Shown one piece after another: positions 4,957 through 23,898 of a stretch of 41,908 nucleotides of DNA (positions are counted from its first letter, which is position 1; each line of letters starts with the position of its first letter). The translations under genes were made by a program, and so were the position numbers. Source of the stretch: a virus. The notes beneath the pieces were generated by a model. That model was given only the letters and a program-made list of their open reading frames with translations, did no database searches and had not been told where the DNA came from. Location: IMG/VR virus record IMGVR_UViG_3300020122_000282, positions 1-41,908 of that record. One strand, 5' to 3'.

Positions 4957-4978
4957 AGAAAATATCTCCAGCGCCCCG

Positions 4979-5290
4979 TTACTGGATCGTAAGCACAAGG
5001 CCCGTCGGGGCTGCCGGAGGGACCACATTGATCACCTTATCCGCACTCGCTGAAAAGGCCGATTCGTTCCCGGCCGTATCCACCGCCGACACGGCATACC
5101 AATAATCCCCATCGACGGCGGCGCCCGTGAGCACATCCTGATAGGTCGGCGTCGAAATCGCCACCATGCCGGTATTGAGTTTCGGCGTCGTGCCTTTCAC
5201 GGGCGCGCTCCCGACCGCGCGATAGACGTTATAGCCCGCCAAATCAGGCTCCGTGTTCTTATTCCAGGTCAAGATGACAGTCGTAGCCAT
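4979..5290 (-). CDS. Fibronectin type III protein with C-terminal A-strand
   Basis: A protein of 103 residues with a strong ribosome-binding site (AGGAGGA). It begins directly in the B strand of an Fn3 domain (VILTWNKN, then DLAGYNVYRA) and continues through the Y-W-Y-A-V-S-A-V-D-T-A-G-N-E-S strands. It ends with PPAAPTGLVLTIQ, the sequence that normally opens an Fn3 domain. The A strand is therefore at the wrong end, or serves a partner. It lacks a signal peptide, unlike its neighbour. Fn3 modules are common on phage surfaces, where they bind cell-surface sugars. The fold assignment is firm by motif; strand donation is my inference. Confidence 0.85.
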   Translation of the reverse strand: MATTVILTWNKNTEPDLAGYNVYRAVGSAPVKGTTPKLNTGMVAISTPTYQDVLTGAAVDGDYWYAVSAVDTAGNESAFSASADKVINVVPPAAPTGLVLTIQ

Positions 5291-7954: not shown

Positions 7955-8926
7955 CTAGCCAATCATTTCACGTTGCATACAAAAGGAGGGCGCTTCCGCC
8001 GCCGGATTCTCTTTCGTCGAATCCGCCACCTTGCGCCACCAGGCAAAGGAATTCGGTTTCTGCGGCGCCCACTGCTCGCGCGGCTTCGGCGGAAACCGCA
8101 GGAAGAAATACTTCATCGCATCCCAGGCGTCGTTGTCCTTATCGACGAGTTCTTCCGGTTGCGCGGCATCGCGGCTGGCCTGCGGGCTGCGATCCTTATG
8201 GCGTTGCAACCCGATTTCACGGATCAAGTTCGGACAGGCCAACGTAATGCGATACTGCGGCTGCAGCGGGTCCTTCCAATAATGCCCATAGAGCCATTCG
8301 GCGACCATCGTATCGCCGCCGCGCTCGCCCTTCGTGAAATAGACGCCCTCCTGCATAAAGAGTTTCGCAATACATTTCATCGTATTGTCGCTCATGATTT
8401 GATCTTCCGCCCAGATCGAGGGGTCGGCAATCTTGAAGGTTTCCATCCCAGCGTAAGGGTTGCCAGGAAATCGGCGACCGTCCGATAGCGTGACCGATTC
8501 GCCTCGAATAATCTGCGCAAGTTTGGCAACTGGGATATTTGAGCCGTAACATTCCCAGAGGGTGACCATGCTGCCATCGCCATTAAGGCCATGGACAAGA
8601 TAGCAGAGCGGATGTCGCCACCCATGATCATAGGAAGCATAGAGTCGATAGCCAATTGGGTTGAAGACGGGGATGACGATTTTGCCGTTCGTGCTCCATT
8701 GCTCCCACGACGGAAAGAGCCGCGTCCCGCCGAGCGCCCCATAATCGACCTCCATCTCCTTGCGCCAGCGCGGACTGGCCGTCCCGCCGGGATAGCCCTG
8801 GGTCGCATCGACCAACCAGGCCTCGCCCTCAGGGGTCCCCGGACGCTTCGCGGGATCGGCGCTGTAGTGCAGCCGCAGCACCGGAATGCCGCTGGTGGTG
8901 AGCCGTTCAGTCATCCCTGGCTGCAT
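7955..8926 (-). CDS. Large terminase, separate nuclease half
   Basis: This 323-residue gene encodes the RNase H-like nuclease domain that cuts DNA during packaging. Visible features are R-W-R-K-E-M-E-V-D-Y-G-A-L-G-G near residue 53 (the usual linker after the ATPase), the first catalytic Asp near residue 100 in L-Y-A-S-Y-D-H-G, an Asp near 168 in I-A-D-P-S-I-W, and the final acidic motif D-K-D-N-D-A-W-D-A-M-K-Y near 262-272. The ATPase domain is absent and lies in a separate gene at 9,305-10,042, two small genes upstream. The ATG overlaps the preceding stop as TGATG, so it is a real, coupled start and not a frameshift artefact. Confidence 0.88.
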   Translation of the reverse strand: MQPGMTERLTTSGIPVLRLHYSADPAKRPGTPEGEAWLVDATQGYPGGTASPRWRKEMEVDYGALGGTRLFPSWEQWSTNGKIVIPVFNPIGYRLYASYDHGWRHPLCYLVHGLNGDGSMVTLWECYGSNIPVAKLAQIIRGESVTLSDGRRFPGNPYAGMETFKIADPSIWAEDQIMSDNTMKCIAKLFMQEGVYFTKGERGGDTMVAEWLYGHYWKDPLQPQYRITLACPNLIREIGLQRHKDRSPQASRDAAQPEELVDKDNDAWDAMKYFFLRFPPKPREQWAPQKPNSFAWWRKVADSTKENPAAEAPSFCMQREMIG

Positions 8927-9126
8927 CAGCCGACTTTGCCTTCATCGAGGTCCCGCTGGATCACGCGCACGCCGTCCTTGGTGAGTTTCAGTTCATAATC
9001 GAACCGCTTGTCGATCGGCATGAGCAGCACCGCATGGCCCAGGAGGCCAATGGTCCAGCGATCGAGTTGCTGGAGGTCCTTCGTGACATCCTTCGTCTCC
9101 GTCTGCTGCATCGTCTGGTTCTTCAT
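8926..9126 (-). CDS. Small gene inside the split terminase (66 aa)
   Basis: ATG 9126 overlaps the upstream stop as ATGA, and the stop overlaps the nuclease start as TGATG. The product opens with a polar helix (many Gln, Thr, Lys, Asp). A short hydrophobic stretch, WTIGLLGHAVLLMPI, could be a buried helix or strand, and the acidic C-terminus has D-G-V-R-V-I-Q-R-D-L. It has no resemblance to an intein or homing endonuclease. Lying between the two terminase halves, it may help join or regulate them. That role is inference from position. Confidence 0.65.
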   Translation of the reverse strand: MKNQTMQQTETKDVTKDLQQLDRWTIGLLGHAVLLMPIDKRFDYELKLTKDGVRVIQRDLDEGKVG

Positions 9127-9308
9127 AGTGCCATCTGGCCGCAGCGTGCGCAGACCTTGCCTCGTCGCATGGTGGGCGGGGGGATCGGCGCCGGCGTCCG
9201 CTCCACTCGCATCGTCAGTGGCGTCGGCAAGTCGTGAAAGATCCAGTGATGGCCACACCGAAATCCTGGCGTATCCTGCGGGTCGCAATTGCGCTCCCAG
9301 GCCGTCAT
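9123..9308 (-). CDS. Small zinc-site gene inside the split terminase (61 aa)
   Basis: ATG 9308 overlaps the ATPase stop as ATGA. The 61-residue product has Cys/His pairs at C-D-P-Q, C-G-H-H and C-A-R-C, enough for a zinc site, plus a proline-rich centre. It ends in G-Q-M-A-L. It is the first of two small genes that separate the ATPase and nuclease genes of the terminase. A zinc-mediated contact within the packaging motor is a plausible but unproven idea. Confidence 0.65.
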   Translation of the reverse strand: MTAWERNCDPQDTPGFRCGHHWIFHDLPTPLTMRVERTPAPIPPPTMRRGKVCARCGQMAL

Positions 9309-10042
9309 GCCGCCGCCTCCACAAGCTGGGCGAACGGGCCCGGCTCCGCCGAACTCACGCCGATGAAACTCCCACCGCCTTTGATCGCCGGGAGCGCGGC
9401 CGTAAACGCCCCGCCGAACTCCGGTTGAAAGGCCGATTCATCGCTGAAGATCACGGAGGGCGTATTGCTCCGGATAATGTCCTGGCCTTCGGGAATCCCC
9501 CAGATATGCGAGCCGTTCGGAAGATAGAGATGCGCGAAGGTCCCGCATTTGGGAAACGTCATCGTGCGCAGATGGACGGGGAGATGCGTTTCAAGAAAGC
9601 TGATCCGCGCGACGAACGGATCTTTGACAAAGACCAGATTCGCCGCATCGTCTTCGCGCTTGCTCTGCACCAAAATGAGCTGGAGGGGGAGATATTTCGC
9701 CCGCCAGAGGAGATAGGCGCAGCAGAGCCACGTCACCATGATTTGGCGGGATTTTTCGACGAGGCAGATGCCGGAACTGGCGCAACCTTGCAGCCACAGG
9801 GGAGAATGTCCGGCTCGGCGGGCATACTCGGCAGAATCAGGACGTAGCAGCCGACCGGCAACGCAGAGTGTATCCAGCAAGGCTCGGAGATATAGCGCAT
9901 CAGGGAAGGGTTTGATGGGATTGGCGGTGTCATGTTCGTCCTTCGTCATCAAGCCCGACTCAAACACGAAATACTGCGCGTCCCGCCGGCAGCGCTCCGC
10001 CTCCAACTGCTGCGCCGCCGTGGCTTTGAGGCGCGGCGTCAT
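9305..10042 (-). CDS. Large terminase, separate ATPase half
   Basis: The packaging motor ATPase domain alone, 245 residues. I chose ATG 10042, which overlaps the upstream stop as ATGA; the longer frame begins with TTG inside another gene. A Walker-A-like loop E-K-S-R-Q-I-M-V-T-W lies at residues 96-105 and lacks the classical GKT/GKS, as in other terminases with a deviant loop. Walker B and the catalytic Glu are at 197-202 (V-I-F-S-D-E), and a coupling motif G-V-S-S-A-E-P at 228-234. The protein stops about 15 residues later, exactly where the nuclease domain would follow. That domain is encoded at 7,955-8,926. Confidence 0.88.
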   Translation of the reverse strand: MTPRLKATAAQQLEAERCRRDAQYFVFESGLMTKDEHDTANPIKPFPDALYLRALLDTLCVAGRLLRPDSAEYARRAGHSPLWLQGCASSGICLVEKSRQIMVTWLCCAYLLWRAKYLPLQLILVQSKREDDAANLVFVKDPFVARISFLETHLPVHLRTMTFPKCGTFAHLYLPNGSHIWGIPEGQDIIRSNTPSVIFSDESAFQPEFGGAFTAALPAIKGGGSFIGVSSAEPGPFAQLVEAAA

Positions 10043-10161
10043 TTCTCCAACAGCCGATGCTTGGTGTTTTCCGTTAAGAGTTTCACGTTCATCCAGACGG
10101 TCAGCAAATTGAACAACGTCAAAAAACAAATCAGCAGCACGACGCCCCAGTCATCGCTCAT
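10039..10161 (-). CDS. Small membrane protein (40 aa)
   Basis: A frame from ATG 10161 to TGA 10039 that overlaps the genes on both sides (11 bases and ATGA). The product is a single predicted membrane helix (GVVLLICFLTLFNLLTVW) with an acidic N-terminus and a basic C-terminal tail. The tight overlaps and clear membrane pattern support it. Its job is unknown; small membrane proteins next to terminase genes are not part of any standard packaging scheme. Confidence 0.6.
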   Translation of the reverse strand: MSDDWGVVLLICFLTLFNLLTVWMNVKLLTENTKHRLLEK

Positions 10162-12183: not shown

Positions 12184-12368
12184 GTCTCATGAGTGAGACC
12201 AATGGATTTTTTCTTCCCACCTTCACCTGTCTCCGCTGTTTGCATCACTGGGTACCAAGGAAATCAGATCGACCGATCACCTGTCCAGGCTGTCGGTCTC
12301 CGTATTGGGATCGACTCAAGATCATTCCAGCGCGCGAGGAAACGAGTGCATAATCTCTTCTCTTTCTT

Positions 12369-12392
12369 TCCCTTTAACTCTCCCTTTAACTC
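12369..12392 (+). repeat. Two tandem 12-base repeats
   Basis: TCCCTTTAACTC occurs twice in direct succession, followed by a partial match. It lies about 75 bases upstream of the replication-initiator-like gene, where iterons or origin elements often sit. Two copies are too few to call an origin on their own. Confidence 0.8.
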
Positions 12393-12411
12393 TGACTCTA
12401 AGATGGTAGAG

Positions 12412-12457
12412 GGTGGCTTTAGCCACCTTATAGGCAACCTATAGCCAGGCTATAAGG
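12412..12457 (+). promoter_or_regulatory. Double hairpin covering the ribosome-binding site of the replication gene
   Basis: Hairpin one pairs GGTGGC (12,412-12,417) with GCCACC (12,422-12,427). Hairpin two pairs CCTTATAG (12,426-12,433) with CTATAAGG (12,450-12,457). The AAGG in the second stem is the only good ribosome-binding site for the TTG start at 12,466. The stems share two bases, so they compete slightly. Control of translation is inferred. Confidence 0.55.
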
Positions 12458-12465
12458 TTAAGACG

Positions 12466-13125
12466 TTGATTTCACTCCCGTTTTTCAAGTTCTATGTGAA
12501 CGACTGGTTAAACTCTGAAAAGATTGCATTCCTGACTCTTGAACAGGTTGGCGCCTATATTATGCTGCTCGCGAAAGAATGGACGCAGCCGACGTGCACC
12601 TTACCAGGCGATCCTCGATTGCTGACAGCACTCATTAAATGGACTGGGAGTGAAGAATCGTTTCTGCCGGTCCTCGCCTGTTTTGTGCCGACGAAGAAGC
12701 CCGCGGGTCGTTTGTATAATCCGCGCTTGCTGAAAGAATGGGAAGCCGCGCAGCTCAAGAGTCAACTCTGGCGGGAGAGTGGGCGACTAGGCGCGGAGAA
12801 GCGCTGGGCAGAGAAACCCGCGCCAGCGCCGCGTTCGAACGAGAACGGACGCGACTATCAGGCCGAATCCAAAGCGGTCTTAGCCTTTTTGAATGAGAAG
12901 GCCAGCAAGCATTTTCGTGAAACCCCTGTGAATCTGAATTTCATTGCCGGCCGATTGAAAGGCGATCCCAAGACACCCGCCGTCGATGTGCAAACATGTA
13001 AGAGCCTCATTGCGCGCAAAGTCCGGGATTGGAAGGGCGATGAGAAGATGGATCACTGCTTGCGCCCCGAAACCCTCTTCAATAAGACCAAGTTCGAAAC
13101 CTATCTTGCGGAGGTGACGCCATGA
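12466..13125 (+). CDS. Replication initiation protein (DUF1376 plus Phg_2220_C-like)
   Basis: The first gene of the rightward operon has 219 residues and starts with TTG at 12,466. Residues 1-100 match the DUF1376 pattern (F-Y-V-N-D-W-L, then L-T-L-E-Q-V-G-A-Y-I-M-L-L and R-L-L-K-E-W). Residues about 135-215 match the conserved phage C-terminal domain found on replication proteins (V-L-A-F-L-N-E-K near 137, R-L-K-G-D, then L-R-P-E-T-L-F and F-E-T-Y-L). The linker is rich in Ala, Pro and Arg. Such proteins usually act at the phage origin and recruit host replication enzymes. No helicase or polymerase gene accompanies it. Confidence 0.8.
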   Translation: MISLPFFKFYVNDWLNSEKIAFLTLEQVGAYIMLLAKEWTQPTCTLPGDPRLLTALIKWTGSEESFLPVLACFVPTKKPAGRLYNPRLLKEWEAAQLKSQLWRESGRLGAEKRWAEKPAPAPRSNENGRDYQAESKAVLAFLNEKASKHFRETPVNLNFIAGRLKGDPKTPAVDVQTCKSLIARKVRDWKGDEKMDHCLRPETLFNKTKFETYLAEVTP

Positions 13126-13499
13126 CCTGTCCCGAATGCGACAAAGATATTTTAGCGTTCCCCTGTTCCTGTGGGTATCGGCCTGATCCCCTCTCCCTGA
13201 TGGAATCCTATCGGCCCATCCTCCCGCTGCACAGTTATGAACCACTGCATGGGGGCCCATATCTCTCCGCTGAAGAATTTGGCGTCACGCTCTATGAGAC
13301 GATTAAAACCATCAGCGGCATGCGCGCGATTCAGGAACACATTGGAATCGCCGTGAACAAACAGCAGGGCTATAAAGTGCAAGGCTTGCGGAAACGGAAA
13401 CACGAGCTGCGGGAACGATTGGCCACCTTGCTTCCACAACTCACAGCCGATGAGACCGCACAAATTGTCTTGCGCTATCCCGATGTGGCCACGTTATAG
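13122..13499 (+). CDS. Zinc-motif protein of the early operon (125 aa)
   Basis: Its ATG overlaps the upstream stop as ATGA. C-P-E-C at residues 3-6 and C-S-C-G at 15-18 form an N-terminal zinc ribbon. The remainder is helical, with a basic stretch (L-R-K-R-K-H-E-L-R-E-R-L) and an acidic, leucine-rich end. Coupling to the initiator gene suggests a replication helper, but no family is recognised. Confidence 0.65.
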   Translation: MTCPECDKDILAFPCSCGYRPDPLSLMESYRPILPLHSYEPLHGGPYLSAEEFGVTLYETIKTISGMRAIQEHIGIAVNKQQGYKVQGLRKRKHELRERLATLLPQLTADETAQIVLRYPDVATL

Positions 13500-13537
13500 C
13501 CGCTGCGATCAATCCTGTGCGTTGTAGGGGTATTCTG

Positions 13538-13966
13538 ATGCGCGTCTGTGTCTATCAAGCCCGCGATCAGGAGAACCGGCTACTATATGTCGGACTCTCC
13601 CAGCATTGGCCCCGCCGATGGGCAGCGCATGCCGAGGATAAACCCTGGTGGCAGGAGGTCGCTCAGCTTCAGGTCTGCTGGCTCAGAACCCAGGCAGAAG
13701 CGGCATGGCTCGAGGAGTATTATATTCAGACGCTCAAGCCCCGCTATAATCGCCACATCCCTCCCAATCGACGAGCGCCCGACTCGCTCAGCACGATCTG
13801 TTCTCTTTGCCGCACCGGCTATTCCGTGTCCTGGCGACCTCCAGGAAGCCGTTGTGAGGATCTATCGCTGAAGCCTTGGACGGAGAAGATGACCAATATA
13901 GAATTAGAGGCCTTAGCCTGCCAGGGCATCTGCCAACTCGAAGGGAAATGGGAATGTCTCGCCTAG
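13538..13966 (+). CDS. GIY-YIG endonuclease domain protein
   Basis: I start at ATG 13538 (142 residues), with AGGGGT upstream; ATG 13517 is an alternative. The domain pattern is V-Y-Q-A-R-D as a weak GIY strand, L-Y-V-G-L-S (residues 16-21) as YIG, Arg 26 and His 31, a Glu near 60 in the A-W-L-E-E-Y-Y-I helix, and Asn 71 in Y-N-R-H. All expected catalytic positions are present. A C-x2-C and a further Cys follow. It may be a free-standing homing or DNA-degrading nuclease. No intron or intein is seen nearby. Confidence 0.75.
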   Translation: MRVCVYQARDQENRLLYVGLSQHWPRRWAAHAEDKPWWQEVAQLQVCWLRTQAEAAWLEEYYIQTLKPRYNRHIPPNRRAPDSLSTICSLCRTGYSVSWRPPGSRCEDLSLKPWTEKMTNIELEALACQGICQLEGKWECLA

Positions 13967-14011
13967 GTATGGAACTTGCCGCCTCGCCTAAAAATAAAGT
14001 TGAGAAAGTGC

Positions 14012-14046
14012 TTGACAGCGTGTACCCCAATGTGAGACAGTGTGCA
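14012..14046 (+). promoter_or_regulatory. Promoter-like TTGACA with two direct repeats
   Basis: TTGACA at 14,012-14,017 lies just before the ribbon-helix-helix gene; no good -10 is seen. The 11-base repeat GACAGYGTGYA occurs at 14,014-14,024 and 14,036-14,046, 22 bases apart, about two helical turns. This is what an autoregulatory operator for a ribbon-helix-helix protein could look like. Confidence 0.45.
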
Positions 14047-14048
14047 TC

Positions 14049-14201
14049 ATGAACACGAAAGCGGCACGGATCAATGTGCGGATCGACACGCAGCATATGG
14101 CGAAACTCACGCTGGACGCCCATCGTGGCGCCGTGAGTGTGTCCCAGGTGGTGCGCCGCATTCTGATGGCCTATTATGCTGATGCCCGAAGGAAACTATG
14201 A
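14049..14201 (+). CDS. Ribbon-helix-helix DNA-binding protein
   Basis: A protein of 50 residues that fits the Arc/CopG fold along its whole length: strand R-I-N-V-R-I-D (7-13), helix A (14-27), a G-x-x-S turn, and helix B S-V-S-Q-V-V-R-R-I-L-M-A-Y-Y (31-44). Such proteins bind DNA as dimers through the strand and usually repress nearby promoters. Two direct repeats lie directly upstream. Its stop was coupled (ATGA) to a gene now broken by the insertion element. Confidence 0.8.
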   Translation: MNTKAARINVRIDTQHMAKLTLDAHRGAVSVSQVVRRILMAYYADARRKL

Positions 14202-14229
14202 CCCGCGCCCTGACCGAGCTGCTCACGAA

Positions 14230-14253
14230 GGCGATTATCCCGCACTTGACAGG
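14230..14253. repeat. Terminal inverted repeat, left end of the IS
   Basis: It starts GGCGATTATCCC and includes CTTGACAGG. It matches the reverse complement of 16,203-16,226 at 22 of 24 positions. A looser match (ATGGC) continues inward. Confidence 0.85.
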
Positions 14254-14271
14254 CTAGCAAAATGGCCGCTA

Positions 14272-15231
14272 TTATTGGTCGCACTCTTCATCTGCACAAT
14301 TGTTTTGGGGATGGATGGGATACATAAAGTCTACGCCTTTGAGTTCTGGCCCAGGGTCAATCGGGTTTCCGTTAACGATTATTTGGAAACAATACCTAGT
14401 TATGTGCAGAGGAGTGTTTTCAAAAACGTCATGATATTTAAGCCATCCCCACACATAGGCGAATTTGGTAGAGGTATGCACAGCCTGCAAATCTTCAGGC
14501 TTAATTCCATCAGAAGGGAAAACTGGTCCGAGTACGGAGGATTTTGGTGCAATGACAGCACGACCAAATTCAGTAGTTTCATATCGAAAATCAAAATCTT
14601 CCGGCAATTGCGTGTCTCTAAGACTGAAACGAACATGACTAGTCAGTTGCTTGGTAGGAGTATCCCCACAGTTGTCCCAGAAAAGCTGAAAGTAATATCG
14701 CTTTTCTCCATTGGCAATAGGCCTATACCAAAACTGAAATTTCCCTGGGAAGACAAAAGCACGTTCCCCGGCGATCATGGCATCATGAGCAATATCAGCG
14801 GCATCCCTGGAAGCCTTAGAGGATTCTTTGGCAAGCCGAAGAGTCTCCTGCATTTCACCAGCTTGCCTATCAGCGGTTCGTTTGGCGTCTTTGGCCATGG
14901 TATTCGTGGACTCCCACAATTTGTAAGTAACGAAGGCCAAGACTCCAGTGACAAGTACGAGCACAAAGGTAATACCGGCAGTCCACCCGGAATATTTGGC
15001 AAGCGATCTCTCGATTTCTATTTTTTCTTCCTCTTGTTTTCTATCGCTTTCGGATTTTTCGGCAGTCTTGGTGGTTATATCGCCTTGAATAACCAGAGGC
15101 GATTCTTGGGTGCCACGCTTGTCCTGAGTAGCTGGTTTATTCTCGGCTTTGGATTGTGGATCTGGGTAACCGTTTGATGATGAGATCACTACTATCAATG
15201 AACAAGATGCAAGAGCGAGGAAGATTCGCAT
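14272..15231 (-). CDS. Passenger membrane protein of the insertion element
   Basis: A protein of 319 residues starting two bases after the transposase stop. An N-terminal hydrophobic segment may be a signal or anchor. A lysine- and glutamate-rich linker leads to a strong membrane helix (A-G-I-T-F-V-L-V-L-V-T-G-V-L-A-F-V), then a coiled-coil stretch, then a soluble beta-rich domain (E-R-A-F-V-F-P-G-K-F onwards) with scattered cysteines. I recall similar proteins in Gram-negative chromosomes, without known function. Because it lies inside the inverted repeats it is cargo of the element. The long opposite-strand frame here is a shadow. Confidence 0.75.
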   Translation of the reverse strand: MRIFLALASCSLIVVISSSNGYPDPQSKAENKPATQDKRGTQESPLVIQGDITTKTAEKSESDRKQEEEKIEIERSLAKYSGWTAGITFVLVLVTGVLAFVTYKLWESTNTMAKDAKRTADRQAGEMQETLRLAKESSKASRDAADIAHDAMIAGERAFVFPGKFQFWYRPIANGEKRYYFQLFWDNCGDTPTKQLTSHVRFSLRDTQLPEDFDFRYETTEFGRAVIAPKSSVLGPVFPSDGIKPEDLQAVHTSTKFAYVWGWLKYHDVFENTPLHITRYCFQIIVNGNPIDPGPELKGVDFMYPIHPQNNCADEECDQ

Positions 15232-15233
15232 GG

Positions 15234-16154
15234 TCAGCACGCCTTGATTGCTGCGCCAAAGATGTCCGCATTCAGGCGCTGGTTATATCTGAACTCAAAC
15301 TCGTTAACATAAAGATGCAGATACTTCTTACTGACCTTATGGAACGTGCCCACGATGCCGCGTTTCACGATGGACCAGAAGCCTTCGATGGTGTTGGTAT
15401 GAATGGCTCCGCAGACATATTCGCCATGCGCATGATGCACCAAGCCATGGGGGAGTGTCTTGTCAAGCCAGCGATAACCCTTGTGATCGTCCGTCGAAAG
15501 CAGGCTGACTTTGTGCGAGACGGTTTCATCAACAAATCGGTTCAGGGTTGCCGCATCCGTGCGTTCAATCACGCGAGCTACTACATTCCCCTTGCGCTGT
15601 ACGGCTCCGACCACAATGAACTTTCCGGTTCCGCCTGTTCCGCCGAAATCCCCGCGTCCGCCCTTCCCCTTGTGCTTGTTCTTGGCTTTGCCGCCGACAT
15701 AGGTTTCATCCACTTCGACATAGCCGACCAGTTTCTTAAATTCGACATTGCCCAGCGCCACACGGATTTTGTTGCACATGAGCCATGCAGTTTTGTAGGA
15801 ACCGAATCCCATATAGCGGCAAACTTGAAGGGAGCTAATGCCCTTCTTGCTCGTGAGCATCAGATGAATGACGCGGAACCATTCACGCAGCGGCTTGTTG
15901 GTGTTCTCGAAGATCGTCCCGACCAGGACAGAAAAGCGGTAGCCTACGCTCCCAGGCGAGCACCTGTAGCATTGCCAGTGATAATTCTTCGGGTGTGGAT
16001 GCACATTCTCATTGGCGCAGCGCGGACAGCGCACGCCGTCCGGCCAGCGATTCTTCATCAGATATTCGGCACACGCCGCGTCATCTGGGAAGAGTCGCTC
16101 AAACTCGCCAATCGACATTTGATGAATGTGCAGGGTGTTTTTGGACTTCCGCAT
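15234..16154 (-). CDS. IS1595-family transposase
   Basis: A protein of 306 residues from ATG 16154, with AAAGGAG upstream. An N-terminal zinc ribbon (C43-x2-C46, C62-x2-C65) precedes the DDE core: Asp 149 in V-E-V-D-E-T-Y-V-G-G-K, Asp 222/223 in S-T-D-D-H-K-G-Y, and H-T-N-T-I-E-G-F-W-S with Glu 257. These are the hallmark motifs of the IS1595/ISXO2-like group. The protein appears intact, so the element may still be active. The longer frame to 16334 lies outside the element and is not used. Confidence 0.92.
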   Translation of the reverse strand: MRKSKNTLHIHQMSIGEFERLFPDDAACAEYLMKNRWPDGVRCPRCANENVHPHPKNYHWQCYRCSPGSVGYRFSVLVGTIFENTNKPLREWFRVIHLMLTSKKGISSLQVCRYMGFGSYKTAWLMCNKIRVALGNVEFKKLVGYVEVDETYVGGKAKNKHKGKGGRGDFGGTGGTGKFIVVGAVQRKGNVVARVIERTDAATLNRFVDETVSHKVSLLSTDDHKGYRWLDKTLPHGLVHHAHGEYVCGAIHTNTIEGFWSIVKRGIVGTFHKVSKKYLHLYVNEFEFRYNQRLNADIFGAAIKAC

Positions 16155-16202
16155 GATCTGGTCTCCTTTCAATCTGGAGCCAGTATGCCATGTTAGAAGA
16201 TA

Positions 16203-16226
16203 CCTGTCAAGAGGGGGATAATCGCC
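16203..16226. repeat. Terminal inverted repeat, right end of the IS
   Basis: Reverse complement partner of 14,230-14,253, 22 of 24 positions identical. It lies 48 bases upstream of the transposase start and may carry its promoter. Confidence 0.85.
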
Positions 16227-16290
16227 CAGATAAATGTACCTATCATGTGCAGAACGGCCAGATCGATATTTGCAGGAAGGAATTGAAGCC

Positions 16291-16974
16291 ATGAGACTCC
16301 TCGACCTCTTCTGCGGGGCTGGCGGGGCAGCCATGGGCTATCATCGTGCGGGATTCGAGGTGGTGGGCGTCGATAACCGTCCCCAAAAGCATTATCCATT
16401 TGAATCCCATTGCGCCGACGCCTTCGCGTTTTTAGAGAAGCATGGCCCGGAGTTCGACGTGATTCATGCGAGCCCGCCATGCCAGGCCTATAGTGAGGCT
16501 ACGCCAATGGCGCATCGTCAAAGCAGCCCTGCTCTAATTGCAGAAATCAGAACGGCACTCAAAAAAGTGAATCGGTTTTTTATTATTGAAAATGTCGAGA
16601 ATGCACGAAAGCACTTGAAGAATCCTCTTATGCTCTGCGGCACTCATTTCAACTTACCCATTTGGCGGCATCGATATTTTGAATGCAATCCAGATTTATT
16701 CGCGCTTTTGCCTCACTGCAAACATGAGCGATATCCGATCACGATTCATAGTGGGAGTCATACGAGGAAGACGTTCACGCCAATTCTCTGCACAGGTGGT
16801 GGTGACGGCATTCGGAGCAGCCGCAAAACGCATCGACCGCGTGAGGCAGTCATGGCGATACGGTATGCGATGGAAATTCCTTGGATGCTTCAAAAAGAAC
16901 TAACTGAAGCCATTCCCCCCGCCTATACCGAGTGGATCGGGCGGCGATTGCTGGAGGCATTATGCCATCAGTGA
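16291..16974 (+). CDS. DNA cytosine-5 methyltransferase
   Basis: A protein of 227 residues from ATG 16291, with AGGAAGG upstream. Motifs of the C5 family appear in order: SAM-binding L-D-L-F-C-G-A-G-G-A (4-13), catalytic S-P-P-C-Q (61-65), I-I-E-N-V (98-102), R-H-R near 126-128, and A-I-P-P-A-Y near the C-terminus. It is short for the family, and the target-recognition part is reduced, as in other phage versions. It probably methylates phage DNA against host restriction. No restriction enzyme lies beside it. Confidence 0.85.
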   Translation: MRLLDLFCGAGGAAMGYHRAGFEVVGVDNRPQKHYPFESHCADAFAFLEKHGPEFDVIHASPPCQAYSEATPMAHRQSSPALIAEIRTALKKVNRFFIIENVENARKHLKNPLMLCGTHFNLPIWRHRYFECNPDLFALLPHCKHERYPITIHSGSHTRKTFTPILCTGGGDGIRSSRKTHRPREAVMAIRYAMEIPWMLQKELTEAIPPAYTEWIGRRLLEALCHQ

Positions 16975-17024
16975 TTTTATTCAGCGGCGTGTGGTGGCTC
17001 GTCGAGAAGGCGATCAGACCATGA
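16962..17024 (+). CDS. Tiny coupled open frame (20 aa)
   Basis: An ATG inside the end of the methyltransferase gene leads to a 20-residue peptide with a hydrophobic middle. It ends in ATGA with the next gene. It may be only a translational bridge between neighbours. Kept because it follows the operon's overlap rule. Confidence 0.3.
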   Translation: MPSVILFSGVWWLVEKAIRP

Positions 17025-17152
17025 AGAATAAACGCTCATATCCGAAGGATGTGCAATTAGCTCTCACGCGAGGCAAGCTCGTCGTCACAGAGCGCCTGCT
17101 TCAGCAGGCGGCCAAACTCATCCGCCTCGCGTATCAGGAACTTACACCATGA
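17021..17152 (+). CDS. Small basic helical protein (43 aa)
   Basis: ATGA overlaps on both sides. The peptide is strongly basic at its start and then a single amphipathic helix (Val/Leu/Ala with Lys, Arg and Gln). No family recognised. A DNA- or protein-binding role would be a guess. Confidence 0.5.
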   Translation: MKNKRSYPKDVQLALTRGKLVVTERLLQQAAKLIRLAYQELTP

Positions 17153-17304
17153 GAAAAGCCGTCTATACCATATCTCTCTATCCCCGCGCGAATGGGCCGG
17201 TGAAGCCAAGGAGTGTCGCTCAGGACGTGCTGGCCATTGTCCAGGGGGCGCTGCTGCTATTTCTCTTATACTGGATTGCACTCTTACTGATGGGAGGTTT
17301 TTAA
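17149..17304 (+). CDS. Small single-pass membrane protein (51 aa)
   Basis: ATG overlaps the upstream stop as ATGA. A basic, proline-containing N-terminal half (about 25 residues) leads to a strong C-terminal membrane helix (G-A-L-L-L-F-L-L-Y-W-I-A-L-L-L-M). A cytoplasmic N-terminus is likely from the charges. Function unknown; an early membrane protein could act in superinfection exclusion or host takeover, but nothing shows this. Confidence 0.55.
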   Translation: MRKAVYTISLYPRANGPVKPRSVAQDVLAIVQGALLLFLLYWIALLLMGGF

Positions 17305-17305
17305 G

Positions 17306-17506
17306 ATGTACGACAATCAGAAGGAATTATCGACTGCCGCAGGCTGTGTTGAGGTGAGGCGTCCTACTTTGACTGAACGCTTGAAAGAAGAACGAGCCTC
17401 TTATGCGAGTCGTCTGGCCGAACTCGATGCGGCCATTTCCGCGCTAGAAGCCAACCCGCAAGTGCAGGTGGTATTGGATCTCGTGCAGAAAGTCTCACGG
17501 TTATGA
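17306..17506 (+). CDS. Small coiled-coil protein (66 aa)
   Basis: It begins one base after the upstream TAA, with GGAGG in the preceding gene's end as its ribosome-binding site. Residues 20-50 form a clear heptad pattern (L-T-E-R-L-K-E-E-R-A-S-Y-A-S-R-L-A-E-L), so it is probably an oligomeric coiled coil. Stop and next start overlap (ATGA). No family recognised. Confidence 0.6.
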   Translation: MYDNQKELSTAAGCVEVRRPTLTERLKEERASYASRLAELDAAISALEANPQVQVVLDLVQKVSRL

Positions 17507-17634
17507 GCATCGCCGACGGTGAGGAGACCGAACCCAGTGAGCCGGAATGGGCGATCCTGCATGAATCTGTCTGGGATTGTCCCTGTTGCTGGACCGAGGC
17601 CTTAGAGCGCGTGAAGGAGCCTAACGATGAATAA
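17503..17634 (+). CDS. Small acidic Cys protein (43 aa)
   Basis: It overlaps the upstream stop (ATGA) and the next gene by eight bases. The N-terminal third is very acidic. A W-D-C-P-C-C-W segment could bind metal. Too short to assign; tight packing supports that it is expressed. Confidence 0.5.
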   Translation: MSIADGEETEPSEPEWAILHESVWDCPCCWTEALERVKEPNDE

Positions 17635-17803
17635 ACACATTATGCGAGCCATGGGGCTGGGGCAAGAAGTCAATCTGGTGGAACAGGGTCTCTGTCCATT
17701 TTGTCGAAAGCCTCCTGGAGAATTTCGCGATGCGCTCTCACAAAAAGAATTTGGCATCAGCGGGCTCTGCCAATCCTGTCAAGATGACTTCTTTGGGAAG
17801 TAG
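17627..17803 (+). CDS. Zinc-ribbon protein (58 aa)
   Basis: ATG 17627 lies in the end of the previous gene. C-P-F-C at residues 23-26 and C-Q-S-C at 48-51 make a four-cysteine ribbon. The spacing and the phrase between them (E-F-G-I-S-G-L-C) suit a small phage zinc-ribbon family. It directly precedes the exonuclease gene. Function unknown. Confidence 0.65.
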   Translation: MNKHIMRAMGLGQEVNLVEQGLCPFCRKPPGEFRDALSQKEFGISGLCQSCQDDFFGK

Positions 17804-17806
17804 GCC

Positions 17807-18727
17807 ATGCTCATAGAGAAAATCATTGAGCAGAAGCAAAAGAAAATCCGACTGCGGCCATGTCATACGAACCGAGCCTCGTCGCTGGGCCATATTTGCG
17901 AGCGGAAATTGGTCTTTGACCGCACACGTTGGGAGGAAGCGACGCTGTATGATGTGGGACTACAATTCATTTTCGATGAAGGGAATTTACAAGAGGCGCA
18001 AGTGCTTAAAGACTTAGCGGAAGCCGGCTGGCAGATCTTAGAGCAACAGCGCGATTATGAATGGAAGCAGTATCAGATCACGGCCCATCTCGACGGCAAG
18101 GTGCTGATCCCCGAGCAGATCATGCTCCCGCCACTCGAAATCAAATCCATGAATCCGTTTACCTTTAAGACGATTAATTCCGCCCAGGATATTCTGCAAT
18201 CCAAAAAGCATTATATCCGCGCGTATGCCTCGCAGATGCAACTCTATCTCTTGCTCTCCAACAGCGAGCGCGGTGTCTTTATTTTTAAGGATAAAAGCAG
18301 TGGGCAGCTCAAGGAAATCTGGATGGAATTAGACTATCAGGCGGCCGAAGACCTGTTGAAGAAAGCCGAGCGGATCAATGCTTTCGTGGCGAACAAGGAA
18401 ACGCCGCCGCCGATTCCCTGGGATGAGGACATTTGCGGACGCTGCGCCTATGCCCATATCTGCTTGCCGGAAGCCAAACGGGAAGCAATTGACTTAACCA
18501 ATGATCCTGAGTTGGAAGTGAAGTTGCAGCGCCGCGCGGCACTCGATCCGCTGCGCAAGGAATATGCTGAACTCGACGAGGAGATTAAGGATCTCGTTAA
18601 AGAAAAGCCGCGCGTGCTCTGCGGCGATTTTCTCCTGACCGGGAAATGGCAGGAGCGCAGCGGCAAGAAGTTTTGGGTGACGAAGATCGATCAATTGACC
18701 GTAACGAAAGGATTGCCTGATGCCTGA
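17807..18727 (+). CDS. Cas4/RecB-like exonuclease with probable iron-sulphur cluster
   Basis: A protein of 306 residues. The PD-(D/E)XK core is visible as Asp 96 in T-A-H-L-D-G, then L-E-I-K-S (Glu 111, Lys 113), then the QxxxY-like S-Q-M-Q-L-Y helix near 142-147. Cys 31 in G-H-I-C-E-R-K pairs at a distance with Cys 210, 213 and 219 in I-C-G-R-C-A-Y-A-H-I-C, the layout of the 4Fe-4S cluster in Cas4 and AddB. A charged coiled-coil tail follows. With the next gene it probably forms a recombination pair that resects DNA ends for annealing. Confidence 0.82.
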   Translation: MLIEKIIEQKQKKIRLRPCHTNRASSLGHICERKLVFDRTRWEEATLYDVGLQFIFDEGNLQEAQVLKDLAEAGWQILEQQRDYEWKQYQITAHLDGKVLIPEQIMLPPLEIKSMNPFTFKTINSAQDILQSKKHYIRAYASQMQLYLLLSNSERGVFIFKDKSSGQLKEIWMELDYQAAEDLLKKAERINAFVANKETPPPIPWDEDICGRCAYAHICLPEAKREAIDLTNDPELEVKLQRRAALDPLRKEYAELDEEIKDLVKEKPRVLCGDFLLTGKWQERSGKKFWVTKIDQLTVTKGLPDA

Positions 18728-19742
18728 AGACAATGGACAAGCGGTGGCGATTGGCACGACCGGCCTGGTGGACGATCAACTCTTGGCCGTTGCCGCTGCT
18801 GCTGAACGCCGCGTAGAAGCGATCAATCGCATTAAGATCCTCTCGCTGAAGGTGACGAACGCCCATGACTGGAACGACCAGGGAGGCAAACCCTATATGG
18901 CGGTCTCAGGAGCTGAGAAGGTGGCGCGCCTGTTCGGCATTTCGTGGCGGCTCGATCCGCCGGTCCGAGAAGATCATGATGACGGTCATTTTGATTATTC
19001 CTTCAAAGGCTATTTTTCAATGGGCACGGCTGAAATTGAAGTGGTCGGCACGCGGGGAAGTCAAGATCCCTGGTTTAGTATGAGCGGGAACAAAGAGATT
19101 CCCCCATCAGAGATTGACCGTAATGATGTGAAGAAGGGCGCGATGACCAACTGTATCGGCAATGGAATTAGCCGGTTGCTTGGGATTCGTAACTTGACCT
19201 GGGAAGAACTCGCCCAGGCTGGAATCAAGCATACAGATGTCGGGAAGGTAATGTACCGAGATAGCGATCCGAACGCCGCCATGAAATTGCCGAATTATGG
19301 GCGGCATAAGGGTCAACAGATGGATGATCCAGCGGTCCCGATTGAGGAATTGCGCTATTATTTAGCAGGAGCAGAGAAATCGATCGCCGATCCTGAGAAG
19401 GCGAAATATAAGGCGAATAATGAAAAGATGCAGGATGCACTCAAGGCTGAAATTGCCAAACGAGAAAAGCCATCAGATGAACCCAAGCCGGCGGACGGCG
19501 CTGGTTCAGTTTCTCCACAGGCTGACCTACCCCAGCAAGCCAGCGATGCGCCAGCACAGGCAGAGGAGGCGCAGGCTTCCTCTGCCGATCCCGCCGAGCC
19601 GTATCGCGTGAAGCTGCGCGTTTGCGAACGGTCTCCGGAAGTCCTTACGCGCACCTATAATGCCATTCCGCCTGAGATTCGCCAAGACTGCCATGCAGAG
19701 TTTCAGGCCCAGTTGAATACGGTCATGAAGAAAAAGAAATGA
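18720..19742 (+). CDS. Putative recombination or annealing protein
   Basis: A protein of 340 residues overlapping the exonuclease by eight bases. The core (residues 20-180) has H-D-W-N-D-Q-G-G-K-P-Y followed by G-A-E-K-V-A-R-L-F-G-I, beta-rich stretches, and V-K-K-G-A-M-T-N-C-I-G-N-G. This pattern is seen in phage proteins paired with exonucleases. Residues about 185-245 carry Y-G-R-H-K-G-Q-Q then a helix, like a small C-terminal module on some nucleases. A Pro/Ala/Gln-rich linker and a basic tail end it. An annealing role is inferred mainly from the gene pair; I cannot assign RecT, Erf or Rad52. Confidence 0.55.
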   Translation: MPEDNGQAVAIGTTGLVDDQLLAVAAAAERRVEAINRIKILSLKVTNAHDWNDQGGKPYMAVSGAEKVARLFGISWRLDPPVREDHDDGHFDYSFKGYFSMGTAEIEVVGTRGSQDPWFSMSGNKEIPPSEIDRNDVKKGAMTNCIGNGISRLLGIRNLTWEELAQAGIKHTDVGKVMYRDSDPNAAMKLPNYGRHKGQQMDDPAVPIEELRYYLAGAEKSIADPEKAKYKANNEKMQDALKAEIAKREKPSDEPKPADGAGSVSPQADLPQQASDAPAQAEEAQASSADPAEPYRVKLRVCERSPEVLTRTYNAIPPEIRQDCHAEFQAQLNTVMKKKK

Positions 19743-20185
19743 GCATCCAGCACGTCAGCGAAGAGCAATTTGCGGCGATGGAGAAACGGGTGAAAGGAAA
19801 TGCCAGAGGAGGCCAGCAGGGACACGGTATACGAGTCACCAATCACTCCGTGGGTGATCTGCCGCGTGCCTCCTCACCCTATCGCTCCAAATGGGAAGCG
19901 GCGTTTGCGAATAAATTGGAACTAGAGAAGCGGGCGGGGATTATTTCCCAATACTGGTATGAACCATTTTCTATTTGGTTGCCAGGGAAGATTCGGTTTA
20001 AGCCGGACTTCATGGTAAAAACATTTGAAGATCCGGTGATGGAAATCATCGAGGTAAAAGGTTGGAGTCGCAACCGCCGCGATGGGATCACGCGCCTGAA
20101 GATGGCGGCGGCACTGTTCCCATGCTTCGTATGGCGCATGGTCTGGATGAAGAAAGGCGGCGGGTTTGACGGAGAATATGTATGA
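19739..20185 (+). CDS. DUF1064-like PD-(D/E)XK nuclease
   Basis: A protein of 148 residues, ATGA-coupled to the annealing gene. A basic, glycine-rich N-terminus precedes Y-R-S-K-W-E-A-A-F-A-N, then a Y-W-Y-E-P-F strand, then the catalytic core F-K-P-D-F (Asp near 90) and I-I-E-V-K-G-W (Glu and Lys near 103-105), with a helix ending in a proline before the last strand. This layout is typical of small phage nucleases related to junction resolvases. It probably trims branched DNA during recombination or replication. Confidence 0.7.
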   Translation: MSIQHVSEEQFAAMEKRVKGNARGGQQGHGIRVTNHSVGDLPRASSPYRSKWEAAFANKLELEKRAGIISQYWYEPFSIWLPGKIRFKPDFMVKTFEDPVMEIIEVKGWSRNRRDGITRLKMAAALFPCFVWRMVWMKKGGGFDGEYV

Positions 20186-20400
20186 CGCCGCTGACTACCT
20201 ATATCGTCCCCGCGAAACTTGTGGGGCTGTTTACGATCGAGGAGACCATAGAGGTGTATAAAGTCGCCGACGTGGAGGCAGCACTGACAGATTGCAGGGA
20301 GATTCTTGACGATATTGCGTCGGGAGATTTTGAGTATACGCAGGGCTTTCGAGCGCGAGCGAATATACTGCTCGACCGGCTGAAAGGAACGCCCGCATGA
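20182..20400 (+). CDS. Small hypothetical protein (72 aa)
   Basis: ATGA overlaps both neighbours. An N-terminal beta-rich part (T-Y-I-V-P-A-K-L-V-G-L-F-T-I) leads to helical segments with an acidic surface. No motif recognised. It may assist the recombination genes just upstream, judged only by linkage. Confidence 0.55.
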   Translation: MTPLTTYIVPAKLVGLFTIEETIEVYKVADVEAALTDCREILDDIASGDFEYTQGFRARANILLDRLKGTPA

Positions 20401-20579
20401 CGATCCAGGTAAAAGTGGGAGATTGGATATGTTGGAAACAAATGGGCTTGCCCAGCTATGCGCGAGTCGAATATATCGTGGACCATGAAGGCCTAAAACG
20501 GACAGAATTTGTTACGACGACCGGTACCTGTTTGTATGACGACATTCTCGAAGTCCGCTCCCCGCAGGAGGGTGCATGA
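20397..20579 (+). CDS. Small beta-rich protein (60 aa)
   Basis: ATGA-coupled on both sides. The sequence looks like a small beta barrel (I-Q-V-K-V-G-D-W-I at the start, then Y-A-R-V-E-Y-I-V-D and T-E-F-V-T-T-T-G), an SH3- or OB-like pattern. Function unknown. Confidence 0.55.
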   Translation: MTIQVKVGDWICWKQMGLPSYARVEYIVDHEGLKRTEFVTTTGTCLYDDILEVRSPQEGA

Positions 20580-20668
20580 TATTGTGTTACATACAAGGGC
20601 TTATAAGTGGAATCGCCTTAGCGACGGTCTTCTGGGTTGGATTCATTATGTTCAGGATCAAGCCATGA
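20576..20668 (+). CDS. Tiny membrane protein (30 aa)
   Basis: ATG overlaps the upstream TGA, and its own stop overlaps the next ATG. Almost the whole 30-residue peptide is one membrane helix (I-S-G-I-A-L-A-T-V-F-W-V-G-F-I-M-F) with a basic C-terminus (R-I-K-P). Its overlaps and pattern match several other mini-membrane genes here. Confidence 0.45.
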   Translation: MILCYIQGLISGIALATVFWVGFIMFRIKP

Positions 20669-20901
20669 CCGACGACGCGCTGCGGCGAGAGGCGGAAGCC
20701 TGCTATCAACGACTGAATACGCCGAATTATTATCTCAATTATCTCAATAATATCGATATTGAAATGCTGGTCACCTTCGCCCAGGCCCAGCGAGCGGCGG
20801 AAGTGCGGGCGTTCCAGCAATTCTTATCAGTGCAATCGTTTCCGGTTTCAAAGGTACTGACGAACTGGCTCGACCAGCGGGCGAAGGAGTGGGAGGCATG
20901 A
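20665..20901 (+). CDS. Small helical protein (78 aa)
   Basis: I take ATG 20665, coupled as ATGA; the longer frame from 20509 runs through other genes. The product is helical and Asn/Tyr-rich in its first half (N-Y-Y-L-N-Y-L-N-N), with a tryptophan near each end of the last helix. No family recognised. Confidence 0.55.
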   Translation: MTDDALRREAEACYQRLNTPNYYLNYLNNIDIEMLVTFAQAQRAAEVRAFQQFLSVQSFPVSKVLTNWLDQRAKEWEA

Positions 20902-21080
20902 GTTGGATTTTGATTGTCTATTTTATTACAACACGGGGCAATGGGTACGGAGAAATGGCCTTTCCCCAGTTCCCTTTTCCTACTGAAGCTGCCTGTCAAA
21001 CTATAGGCGAGATGGTGGTAAAGGCAACGCCTGACATGATTTATCTCCATCCTCCTTTTCGGTGCGTGGTGGAAGGATGA
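20898..21080 (+). CDS. Small hydrophobic-start protein (60 aa)
   Basis: ATG 20898 is coupled (ATGA). The start W-I-L-I-V-Y-F-I could be a short anchor or a buried strand. A Phe/Pro-rich middle (F-P-Q-F-P-F-P) and two cysteines follow. No family recognised. Confidence 0.5.
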   Translation: MSWILIVYFITTRGNGYGEMAFPQFPFPTEAACQTIGEMVVKATPDMIYLHPPFRCVVEG

Positions 21081-21388
21081 CCGAGCCGTTGAGCCGAGCG
21101 CAGCGAGTCCGCCAACTCTTCGAGGCGCACAATTATGTGCTGGCCTCGGTAAGCAATGTGCTGGAGGTCATGCGCGTGGTGGAATCGGAAGAGATCGCGA
21201 GCCTGCAACGACAGCTCGCGCAAGTCACAGTGGAGCGGAATGATTGGAAGGCGAACTATACGGCATTGCAAAAAGAGCGACTATCAATCTTGGAGCATTG
21301 TGAAAATCATAAGCAGCAGCTCGCCACGTGTCAGGAAGACCTCCGCGCGACCAAGGCCACCCCGGAGGAACGGAGGAAGCATGAATGA
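21077..21388 (+). CDS. Coiled-coil protein (103 aa)
   Basis: ATG 21077 overlaps the upstream stop. From residue 35 to the end it is one long heptad-type coiled coil rich in Glu, Gln, Leu and Lys, with two cysteines and two histidines. It probably dimerises. Function unknown; early-operon position only. Confidence 0.6.
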   Translation: MTEPLSRAQRVRQLFEAHNYVLASVSNVLEVMRVVESEEIASLQRQLAQVTVERNDWKANYTALQKERLSILEHCENHKQQLATCQEDLRATKATPEERRKHE

Positions 21389-21575
21389 AATTCTTCATAT
21401 TTGCAGGTCGTGTAAAGAGGGCATTATAGGAGATTATACCGTATCGGTTGGACCTAGAAAACAGGATGGTTCTTTCTACCCTGACAAAGTATACCATCCT
21501 GCCTGCTATGGAGCATTATTGGCTAGAGCGAGCACGTTATTTAATCCTATGAAGGAGGTGAAGGAGGCCCCATGA
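21381..21575 (+). CDS. Small zinc-motif protein (64 aa)
   Basis: ATG 21381 lies eight bases inside the upstream gene. C-R-S-C near residue 8 and H-P-A-C near 39 suggest a metal site. The end of this gene carries two strong ribosome-binding sites (GGAGGTG and GGAGG) that serve the PEP-CTERM gene. Confidence 0.55.
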   Translation: MNEILHICRSCKEGIIGDYTVSVGPRKQDGSFYPDKVYHPACYGALLARASTLFNPMKEVKEAP

Positions 21576-22183
21576 CACCCCTGCTCATCCTCGCATTCCT
21601 GTTCTTCACCAGCCCCGCCTGGGCCGTGCCCTTGGACTTCATGACGACCGACGTAAATCCCCAGGCGCAAACCGTTTCTTTCACCATGCACTTTCAAGGC
21701 GTGCCAGATTTCCAGGATACGGATCAATTCGGCCGGCAAGCCGATTCCTTTCAGCTCTATATTTATCAAATACCGACGCCAGAATTTTCCCAGGGTGGCG
21801 TGGATCTCAGTATCGTTCGAGGCGAAGAATTACATTGGGATCAAGGCCTTCCGATTCGCAATGTCACACTCGGATCTGATTTCCTCAATGATCCCCATGG
21901 CGGCGGATGGGGCAGCGTGCGGGAATCAGATCCGGTGATACTTACCGGCAATACCTTGACTTGGACGGGCACTCTCGCAGGACTCGGGTTGTCGAATGCC
22001 GATCCCTTCGGCTATGGGCATATTACCGCCTCATTCGGCAATGATTTTAATTCGTTCTTTGGGGGATGTACCAGCGCGGCGCCCTGTGCCATGCCAGAGC
22101 CAGATGGATTCTGGCCGCTGTTCCTGGGCCTCCTGGGGCTTGCTGCAATCGCCCTACGCTACAGGTGGGGGCTTGATACCTGA
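21572..22183 (+). CDS. PEP-CTERM sorted exported protein
   Basis: A protein of 203 residues with two strong ribosome-binding sites. A Sec signal peptide (LLILAFLFFTSP, cleavage after A-W-A near 18) leads to a beta-rich secreted domain with many Asp, Gly and aromatic residues. The last 30 residues are a textbook PEP-CTERM signal: P-E-P at 175-177, a membrane helix at 180-195 with two Gly-Leu steps, then R-Y-R. Exosortase would recognise this tail and hand the protein to the envelope or exopolysaccharide matrix. It is the second-last gene of the early operon. I know of no standard phage function for such a protein; envelope change or superinfection exclusion are guesses. Confidence 0.85.
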   Translation: MTPLLILAFLFFTSPAWAVPLDFMTTDVNPQAQTVSFTMHFQGVPDFQDTDQFGRQADSFQLYIYQIPTPEFSQGGVDLSIVRGEELHWDQGLPIRNVTLGSDFLNDPHGGGWGSVRESDPVILTGNTLTWTGTLAGLGLSNADPFGYGHITASFGNDFNSFFGGCTSAAPCAMPEPDGFWPLFLGLLGLAAIALRYRWGLDT

Positions 22184-22230
22184 ATAATGAGGGTTATCTG
22201 CAAGTAGTCCATTTCACAAAGGGGTCTTCT

Positions 22231-22443
22231 ATGAAAGCAATCTTATGGGTTCTCTTAGGCGCGGTCTTGGCCATTGCGGGGCAAACCTATGCCCAATCAT
22301 GGAACGGCAGCACCTACCAGGGGCAGGTCGAGACGAATACCTTAAACAATTTCAACAATTCTATCTATCGACAGCAGGGGAATCAGGACCAGCAGCAGAA
22401 TAGCGTCTATACGAATCCTTATGCCCATAAGTCGCCCTGCTAG
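22231..22443 (+). CDS. Small secreted Gln/Asn-rich protein
   Basis: A protein of 70 residues with AAAGGGG before its ATG. A clear signal peptide ends at T-Y-A near residue 21. The mature 49-residue part is very rich in Gln and Asn with repeated N-x-x-N and Y-R-Q-Q-G patterns, and ends in a single Cys. It is the last rightward gene. Its TAG overlaps the TAG of the opposing gene in CTAG. A periplasmic or surface role is likely; function unknown. Confidence 0.7.
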   Translation: MKAILWVLLGAVLAIAGQTYAQSWNGSTYQGQVETNTLNNFNNSIYRQQGNQDQQQNSVYTNPYAHKSPC

Positions 22444-22943
22444 GGCAGTGGTTTGGGCTGGACAATGGACGCGACGGTGGACATGGGCACAGAATTGCTC
22501 AACATTTGGTCTTTGTCAAAGGATCCTTTCGTCGTGCCGAACCAATAGCCGAGCACCATGGGCACGGCGGCAGCGAGGACGCCGATCAGCGTCAAGAGGA
22601 CTTCTCCTCCAGGGTCTTTGGTCGAAGGAATGCCATGAATGATCATGACGGCCAGCAGCCCGAAATAGCCGCCGATGATGACGAGCGTGAGCGTCCCAGG
22701 CCAAATGCTTCTCGTCGCCATTTGCATCTGCCGCGCCGATTGCACATCGCTGATCTGAGCCTGATAGGCCTCCAATTGCATCTCGGCTAATCGGAGCTTC
22801 ATCTGTTGCGCTTGCTCCGGCGAAAGATGGAATTCCTCGATGAGCCCTTTGACGCCATCGAAGATCCCCGCGACAAGCTTCTGCCCGGTCTCAGAGGCAA
22901 TGCCAGCGGGCGTGCTGCCTGAAAAGAGATCCCAGAACCCCAC
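22440..22943 (-). CDS. Holin-like membrane protein
   Basis: The true start is GTG 22943, overlapping the upstream TAG (TAGTG); the longer frame lies in another gene. The 167-residue product has an N-terminal helical part, a Gln/Glu-rich coiled region with D-V-Q-S-A-R, then two strong membrane helices (T-L-T-L-V-I-I-G-G-Y-F-G-L-L and L-L-T-L-I-G-V-L-A-A-A-V-P-M-V-L-G-Y). This resembles phage holins of the two/three-helix type with a cytoplasmic lead. It is near the endolysin gene and is the last late gene. Confidence 0.6.
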   Translation of the reverse strand: MGFWDLFSGSTPAGIASETGQKLVAGIFDGVKGLIEEFHLSPEQAQQMKLRLAEMQLEAYQAQISDVQSARQMQMATRSIWPGTLTLVIIGGYFGLLAVMIIHGIPSTKDPGGEVLLTLIGVLAAAVPMVLGYWFGTTKGSFDKDQMLSNSVPMSTVASIVQPKPLP

Positions 22944-23077
22944 TAGAGCACCTTCTTGACCGTCGAAATCTCGGTCATGATTTTGGCCTGGACGGATTTG
23001 CCATAGAAGTAAAAGATGAAGCCTCCAATGATGACGCCGCACGCGGCACTAATAATGACTGCGAGGAACAGTTCCAT
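22943..23077 (-). CDS. Small single-pass membrane protein (44 aa)
   Basis: ATG 23077 has AGGAGG eight bases upstream. One glycine-containing membrane helix (residues 3-25) is followed by a basic/polar tail (K-S-V-Q-A-K onwards). It sits in the lysis cluster between a coiled-coil membrane protein and the holin-like gene, so it may be a holin or antiholin part. The stop is shared with the next GTG. Confidence 0.6.
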   Translation of the reverse strand: MELFLAVIISAACGVIIGGFIFYFYGKSVQAKIMTEISTVKKVL

Positions 23078-23556: not shown

Positions 23557-23898
23557 TTAGACTTCTCCCGTCAACCAGGAATCCAATGGCGATTCAATCC
23601 CTGGCCCTTTATGCACGACGCGCCAGACCCGCGGCATCCAATCCAGATGGAGATGCGAGTTCGTCACATCCGCTTCAATCCCAGGGAACCCAATCTCATA
23701 GGCGCGGCGCGCGGCCAGGATAAAGTCCTGCCTATTGTCGAACACCAGGTCCACCGCTTTCCCAGCGAGGTGCCCGCTATTGGGCGCGCCACCGACTGAG
23801 GCATTATGCAAGGGCGTCGAGATGAAGCGCGTGATGCTCGCCGGATGATCGATCAGCAAGTCATTCAGATGCGCGACAAAGTCCAAATCGAGAATCAT
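23557..23898 (-). CDS. Endolysin, M15-type peptidase
   Basis: A protein of 113 residues coupled to the tail fibre gene (TAATG). It shows the zinc peptidase pattern of the M15 family: S-G-H-L-A-G-K-A-V-D-L (His 43 and Asp 50) and S-H-L-H-L-D-W (His 84 and Asp 86). Such enzymes cut peptide links in peptidoglycan, and this is the compact single-domain form common in Gram-negative phages. It has no signal peptide, so it needs a holin; candidates follow directly. Confidence 0.85.
   Translation of the reverse strand: MILDLDFVAHLNDLLIDHPASITRFISTPLHNASVGGAPNSGHLAGKAVDLVFDNRQDFILAARRAYEIGFPGIEADVTNSHLHLDWMPRVWRVVHKGPGIESPLDSWLTGEV

Follow-up and report, generated by a model that had tools for sequence, protein, structure and literature searches.

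The closest described system is that of the PEP-CTERM/exosortase (EpsH) proteins of bacteria (PF07589, TIGR02595; Haft et al. 2006, PMC1569441). PEP-CTERM proteins have been linked in bacteria to matrix adhesion, motility and biofilm (PMC12188702) and, in two further reports, to floc formation (PMC9850573, PMC9012009). Viral contigs from Yellowstone carry genes of the TIGR03118 family with a C-terminal exosortase-interaction domain, which were attributed to transfer from cells (PMC11003980). ZepA is a small, secreted, zinc-handling PEP-CTERM exoprotein found sporadically in cyanobacteria and planctomycetes (PMC10957091).

The window, i.e. the whole 41,908-nucleotide stretch of viral DNA analysed here, contains a gene (Table 1) whose product resembles the PEP-CTERM/EpsH proteins in its signal-peptide-like start, its putatively exported body, its PEP motif, its helix and its basic end, and its body is homologous to that of bearers of such tails. 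It differs from the bacterial PEP-CTERM proteins in being encoded by a phage and in having a tail that scores under the curated cut-offs. With the Yellowstone genes it shares a virus-borne tail of the exosortase-interaction type, but it had no TIGR03118 match and apparently belongs to another family; unlike those contigs, it is located in a near-complete genome with a sister available for comparison. ZepA is similarly small and of the secreted PEP-CTERM type, but the phage protein lacks its zinc motif, H-X2-9-H-F/Y-H, and was rejected as a ZepA zinc exoprotein. A further known arrangement, the unimolecular spanin of the phage T1 type, has an exported beta-rich body, a C-terminal membrane helix and a lipobox cysteine. 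The first two are similar in the phage protein, whereas the lipobox cysteine is lacking and the gene is on the early strand, outside the conserved lysis genes.

Table 1 Features of the locus and its immediate neighbours (positions in the window)
Feature	Position	Strand	Basis
PEP-CTERM-type secreted protein gene	21572..22183	+	ATG start, 203 aa, open frame, body homology to bacterial secreted proteins
Signal-peptide-like N-terminus, residues 1-18 (MTPLLILAFLFFTSPAWA)	21572..21625	+	Sequence, hydropathy
Conserved body, about residues 28-157	21653..22042	+	tblastn matches, alignments A2 and A3
PEP-CTERM-like tail, residues 175-203 (PEP, hydrophobic helix, RYR)	22094..22180	+	PF07589 below cut-off, modelled helix
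Two upstream early genes (21062-21388 and about 21381-21575)	21062..21575	+	ORF table and sequence
Following gene, small protein with signal-peptide-like start	22231..22443	+	Kept in sister phage

The ORF is preceded by a strong Shine-Dalgarno sequence (AAGGAGGTGAAGGAGGCCCC-ATG) and its start overlaps the stop of the preceding gene in the sequence ATGA. This preceding gene begins, in our reading of the sequence, at an internal ATG at position 21381, and as the ends of the two upstream genes overlap, the PEP gene is coupled to both of them. Its GC and GC3 contents (0.554 and 0.598) are similar to those of the adjoining early genes. The product of the following gene has 44 % identity with its counterpart in the sister phage (L029:15482-15676) and a weak holin match (phrog_9233, E 0.009). 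It is rich in Q and N and ends in NPYA.K.PC, with the cysteine at the C-terminus; the gene adjoins a convergent holin-like gene.

The sequence-only reading had described a signal peptide, a P-E-P motif, a membrane helix and an R-Y-R end in that order, and all of these were recovered, the first as a signal-peptide-like start with no K or R in its n-region. The N-terminus, MTPLLILAFLFFTSPAWA followed by VP, is the hydrophobicity peak of the whole protein (Kyte-Doolittle 1.81, 19 residues) and closes with an AxA site (AWA/VP). The tail reads M-PEP-DGFWPLFLGLLGLAAIALRYRWGLDT, with PEP at residues 175-177, and its hydrophobic run extends to about residue 195, where RYRWGLDT follows. A low-confidence structure model (pLDDT 59) has a beta-rich body and a C-terminal helix, predicted at residues 180-198. 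A fold search with this model gave weak, mixed beta-sandwich matches, none with E ≤ 0.001, and was not used as evidence. The ORF was also the sole match in a rule scan of all ORFs of at least 60 amino acids from the window and from the viral loci fetched for comparison, which called for PEP, a hydrophobic stretch and at least two K/R within the last 40 residues; shuffled products of the window ORFs gave 0.01 matches per window.

The curated profiles did not recognise this tail. The full-length protein had no Pfam or NCBIfam match, and the only Pfam match of the isolated tail was PF07589 at 14.0-14.8 bits, short of the cut-off of 20.7; a score below threshold had been named beforehand as one half of a refutation test. 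The only NCBIfam match of the tail was MYXO-CTERM (13.6 bits, cut-off 20), restricted to the hydrophobic part, and TIGR02595 was not listed among the NCBIfam matches, so that the phage protein passed neither PEP-CTERM profile. A bacterial relative from Nostoc (L033) also has a tail under the Pfam cut-off (16.5 bits in isolation), and a low score therefore does not exclude membership.

Relatives of the body were found in bacteria. Single-sequence 8-mer searches of viral contigs, genome contigs, phages and plasmids gave no relatives. The successful genome scan used an alignment (A1) that included two made-up guide rows based on bacterial PEP-CTERM motifs; these served only the choice of patterns, and no match was accepted without confirmation by the true window protein. 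Relatives were obtained from two species of Nostoc, Dulcicalothrix, Calothrix and Candidatus Kuenenia, with 31-42 % identity over much of the body. In tblastn the true window protein matched them with 55-81 bits (top score 80.9), the matches beginning at residue 28 (Nostoc, Dulcicalothrix, Calothrix) or residue 4 (Kuenenia), and the homology to the Nostoc and Kuenenia relatives was significant over the full body (tblastn, alignment A2). Motifs of the body include PDF, FGRQADSFQ, IVRGEELH, IRN and GGWGSVR. The window protein and the five real relatives were combined in a profile (A2), and an unsteered search of 246 planctomycete genomes with it gave two relatives in addition to Kuenenia. In one of these (L039, E 7e-30) the protein has a canonical PEP-CTERM tail that is over the cut-off of both PF07589 (28.6 bits) and TIGR02595 (23.9 bits). 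Both Nostoc relatives have VPEP tails, and in others the PEP motif has drifted or been lost: VHEPA in Calothrix, IPVPS in Kuenenia (L036) and VPTPT in the second planctomycete relative (L040), while in Dulcicalothrix the frame ends ahead of the tail. With such tails among the relatives, a weak tail is normal for this body family. The Nostoc L033 gene has glycosyltransferases and a polysaccharide pyruvyl transferase as neighbours, and the tested neighbours of the Kuenenia and Dulcicalothrix genes are chromosomal (ligA, ribD, T2SS/T4P ATPase, pheS); nothing near any of these relatives was recognised as a phage gene. A tree of seven rows (the phage protein and six relatives) did not resolve the donor.

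An exosortase (PF09721) was found in all seven genomes that carry a relative, comprising the first five (5/5 above cut-off) and both further planctomycetes. The base rates were 99 of 246 planctomycetes (40 %), 35 of 117 cyanobacteria (30 %) and one of 14 controls. As close kin, the four cyanobacterial carriers have little weight as independent cases, which makes the link suggestive rather than strong; for the three planctomycetes alone the value was 0.065. The claim that this is a phage-encoded PEP-CTERM protein thus gained from the body homology and from the exosortase in every carrier genome, and fell short at the tail scores. The homologues sought for it occurred in exosortase-bearing bacteria, and none was found in the phage records and viral contigs searched. 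No exosortase was detectable in the phage itself, so that use of a host exosortase may reasonably be inferred. The kinship of the body to exosortase-sorted surface proteins of bacteria likewise suggests that the phage probably borrows the sorting enzyme of its host. Remote relatives of the capsid protein occurred in five planctomycetes without a detected exosortase; these are distant phages and count slightly against sorting.

The window belongs to a tailed phage. The minus strand bears its late operon, which encodes an internal virion protein, pieces of the terminase, a capsid protein (phrog_9953) and a portal protein (phrog_156; a P22-like match in Pfam is just under the cut-off). What is presumably the early operon lies on the plus strand, where a Cas4-like exonuclease and a cytosine methyltransferase are encoded. 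The PEP gene adjoins a putative lysis cluster on the minus strand, with a holin-like gene (22440-23042) and a peptidase M15-like gene (23557-23898). The capsid relatives are remote and include Myxococcus phages Mx8 and Mx9. No tRNA genes and no terminal repeat were found in the window. The closest sister phage (IMGVR_UViG_3300010401_000021, 41,768 bp) has a capsid protein with 92 % identity and is collinear with the window all round the circle, also across both window ends, and the window is therefore probably an essentially complete, permuted phage genome. The sister has no PEP gene but keeps the next two genes (22231-22443 and 22440-23042), which makes the PEP gene an accessory, variable component of the early operon. 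Neither the window protein nor its relatives detected the gene or a relative in other viral contigs, and a canonical PEP-CTERM tail, a short query and hence a weak test, had no match in phage records.

Some other features of the two phages were also observed. Their plus-strand early regions (12193-22443 in the window, L029:4900-15480 in the sister) are almost wholly different, whereas the late regions are collinear and mostly 50-92 % identical. The terminase large subunit is seemingly split (7955-10129, minus strand) into an ATPase-like ORF (9305-10129, with terminase PHROG matches), a small ORF and a nuclease-like ORF (7955-8926), an arrangement also kept in the sister. The nuclease part was called by eye; it has no family match, and this presumed terminase ORF had no match in phage records. 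A signal peptide within a late phage module is unusual, and both phages have a gene with a signal-peptide-like start at corresponding positions of their late operons: 3019-5028 (minus strand) in the window, with MALKIWLTLALLLWPLSAWAVP at an internal start, and L030:17732-19306 in the sister, with MIMRILLGCLIGLFWVTVAQAV. The product of 3019-5028 has beta-helix and LamG domains, and tblastn gave no match between the two products.

We read the gene as a putative accessory PEP-CTERM protein gene acquired from bacteria, and on balance its product is probably sorted by the exosortase of the host. The source of the gene would have been a bacterium with an exosortase. On sequence grounds, the product is predicted to be exported by Sec and retained in the inner membrane through the C-terminal helix. 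Judging from the relatives, the host exosortase would cut or transfer it at the PEP site, provided that the host has the enzyme and that the enzyme recognises the degenerate tail, and in the course of infection the protein would reach the cell surface or the extracellular matrix. The least certain step, and a rather unlikely one, is that the surface protein aids the phage by blocking the adsorption of further phages or by altering how the infected cell adheres or what its matrix is like; by analogy, our guess is that exclusion or matrix change would be its likeliest purpose. The reading as a whole, in which the phage uses the host exosortase to place its own protein on the surface or in the matrix for superinfection exclusion or matrix takeover, is less likely than not.

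The main rival to exosortase sorting is a plain inner-membrane protein, anchored by its helix and unprocessed, that acts in superinfection exclusion or spanin-like lysis, with the PEP a relic or a matter of chance. The low tail scores and the adjoining lysis cluster are as expected from this, but it appears unlikely: the body and the order of the tail agree with PEP-CTERM proteins, the gene (plus, early strand) and the lysis genes (minus strand) are oppositely oriented, and the sister phage retains the lysis genes without having this one. The protein has cysteines only at residues 166 and 172 and therefore no N-terminal lipobox, which rejects it as a unimolecular spanin. Less probable again is a newly captured passenger gene of no use to the phage. 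It would account for the absence of the gene from the sister and from every further viral contig searched, but hardly for an intact frame with a strong RBS, ATGA coupling and a base composition like that of its neighbours, nor for far divergence from the known bacterial relatives without decay. That the tail is a sorting tag of the MYXO-CTERM kind, from a phage with a myxobacterial host, is very improbable in spite of the NCBIfam match, the Mx8 and Mx9 capsid relatives and Cys172 immediately ahead of PEP, as the match is below cut-off and covers model positions 16-31, with the invariant-cysteine motif outside it, and the body relatives found are from exosortase-bearing cyanobacteria and planctomycetes; MYXO-CTERM membership was rejected.

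Viral genes with exosortase-interaction tails are already known (PMC11003980), and the present gene is a further case. It is anchored by a near-complete phage genome and by a sister that lacks it, and it is mainly a testable lead. The curated tail profiles overlook real members of such families, a bacterial one included. Processing of the tail, if it occurs, would show that phages exploit exosortase sorting, and the tail would then be a simple means of telling from a genome that a phage infects exosortase-bearing bacteria (floc and biofilm formers). The protein would then also be a small natural substrate with which to gauge how much drift a working PEP-CTERM tail tolerates.
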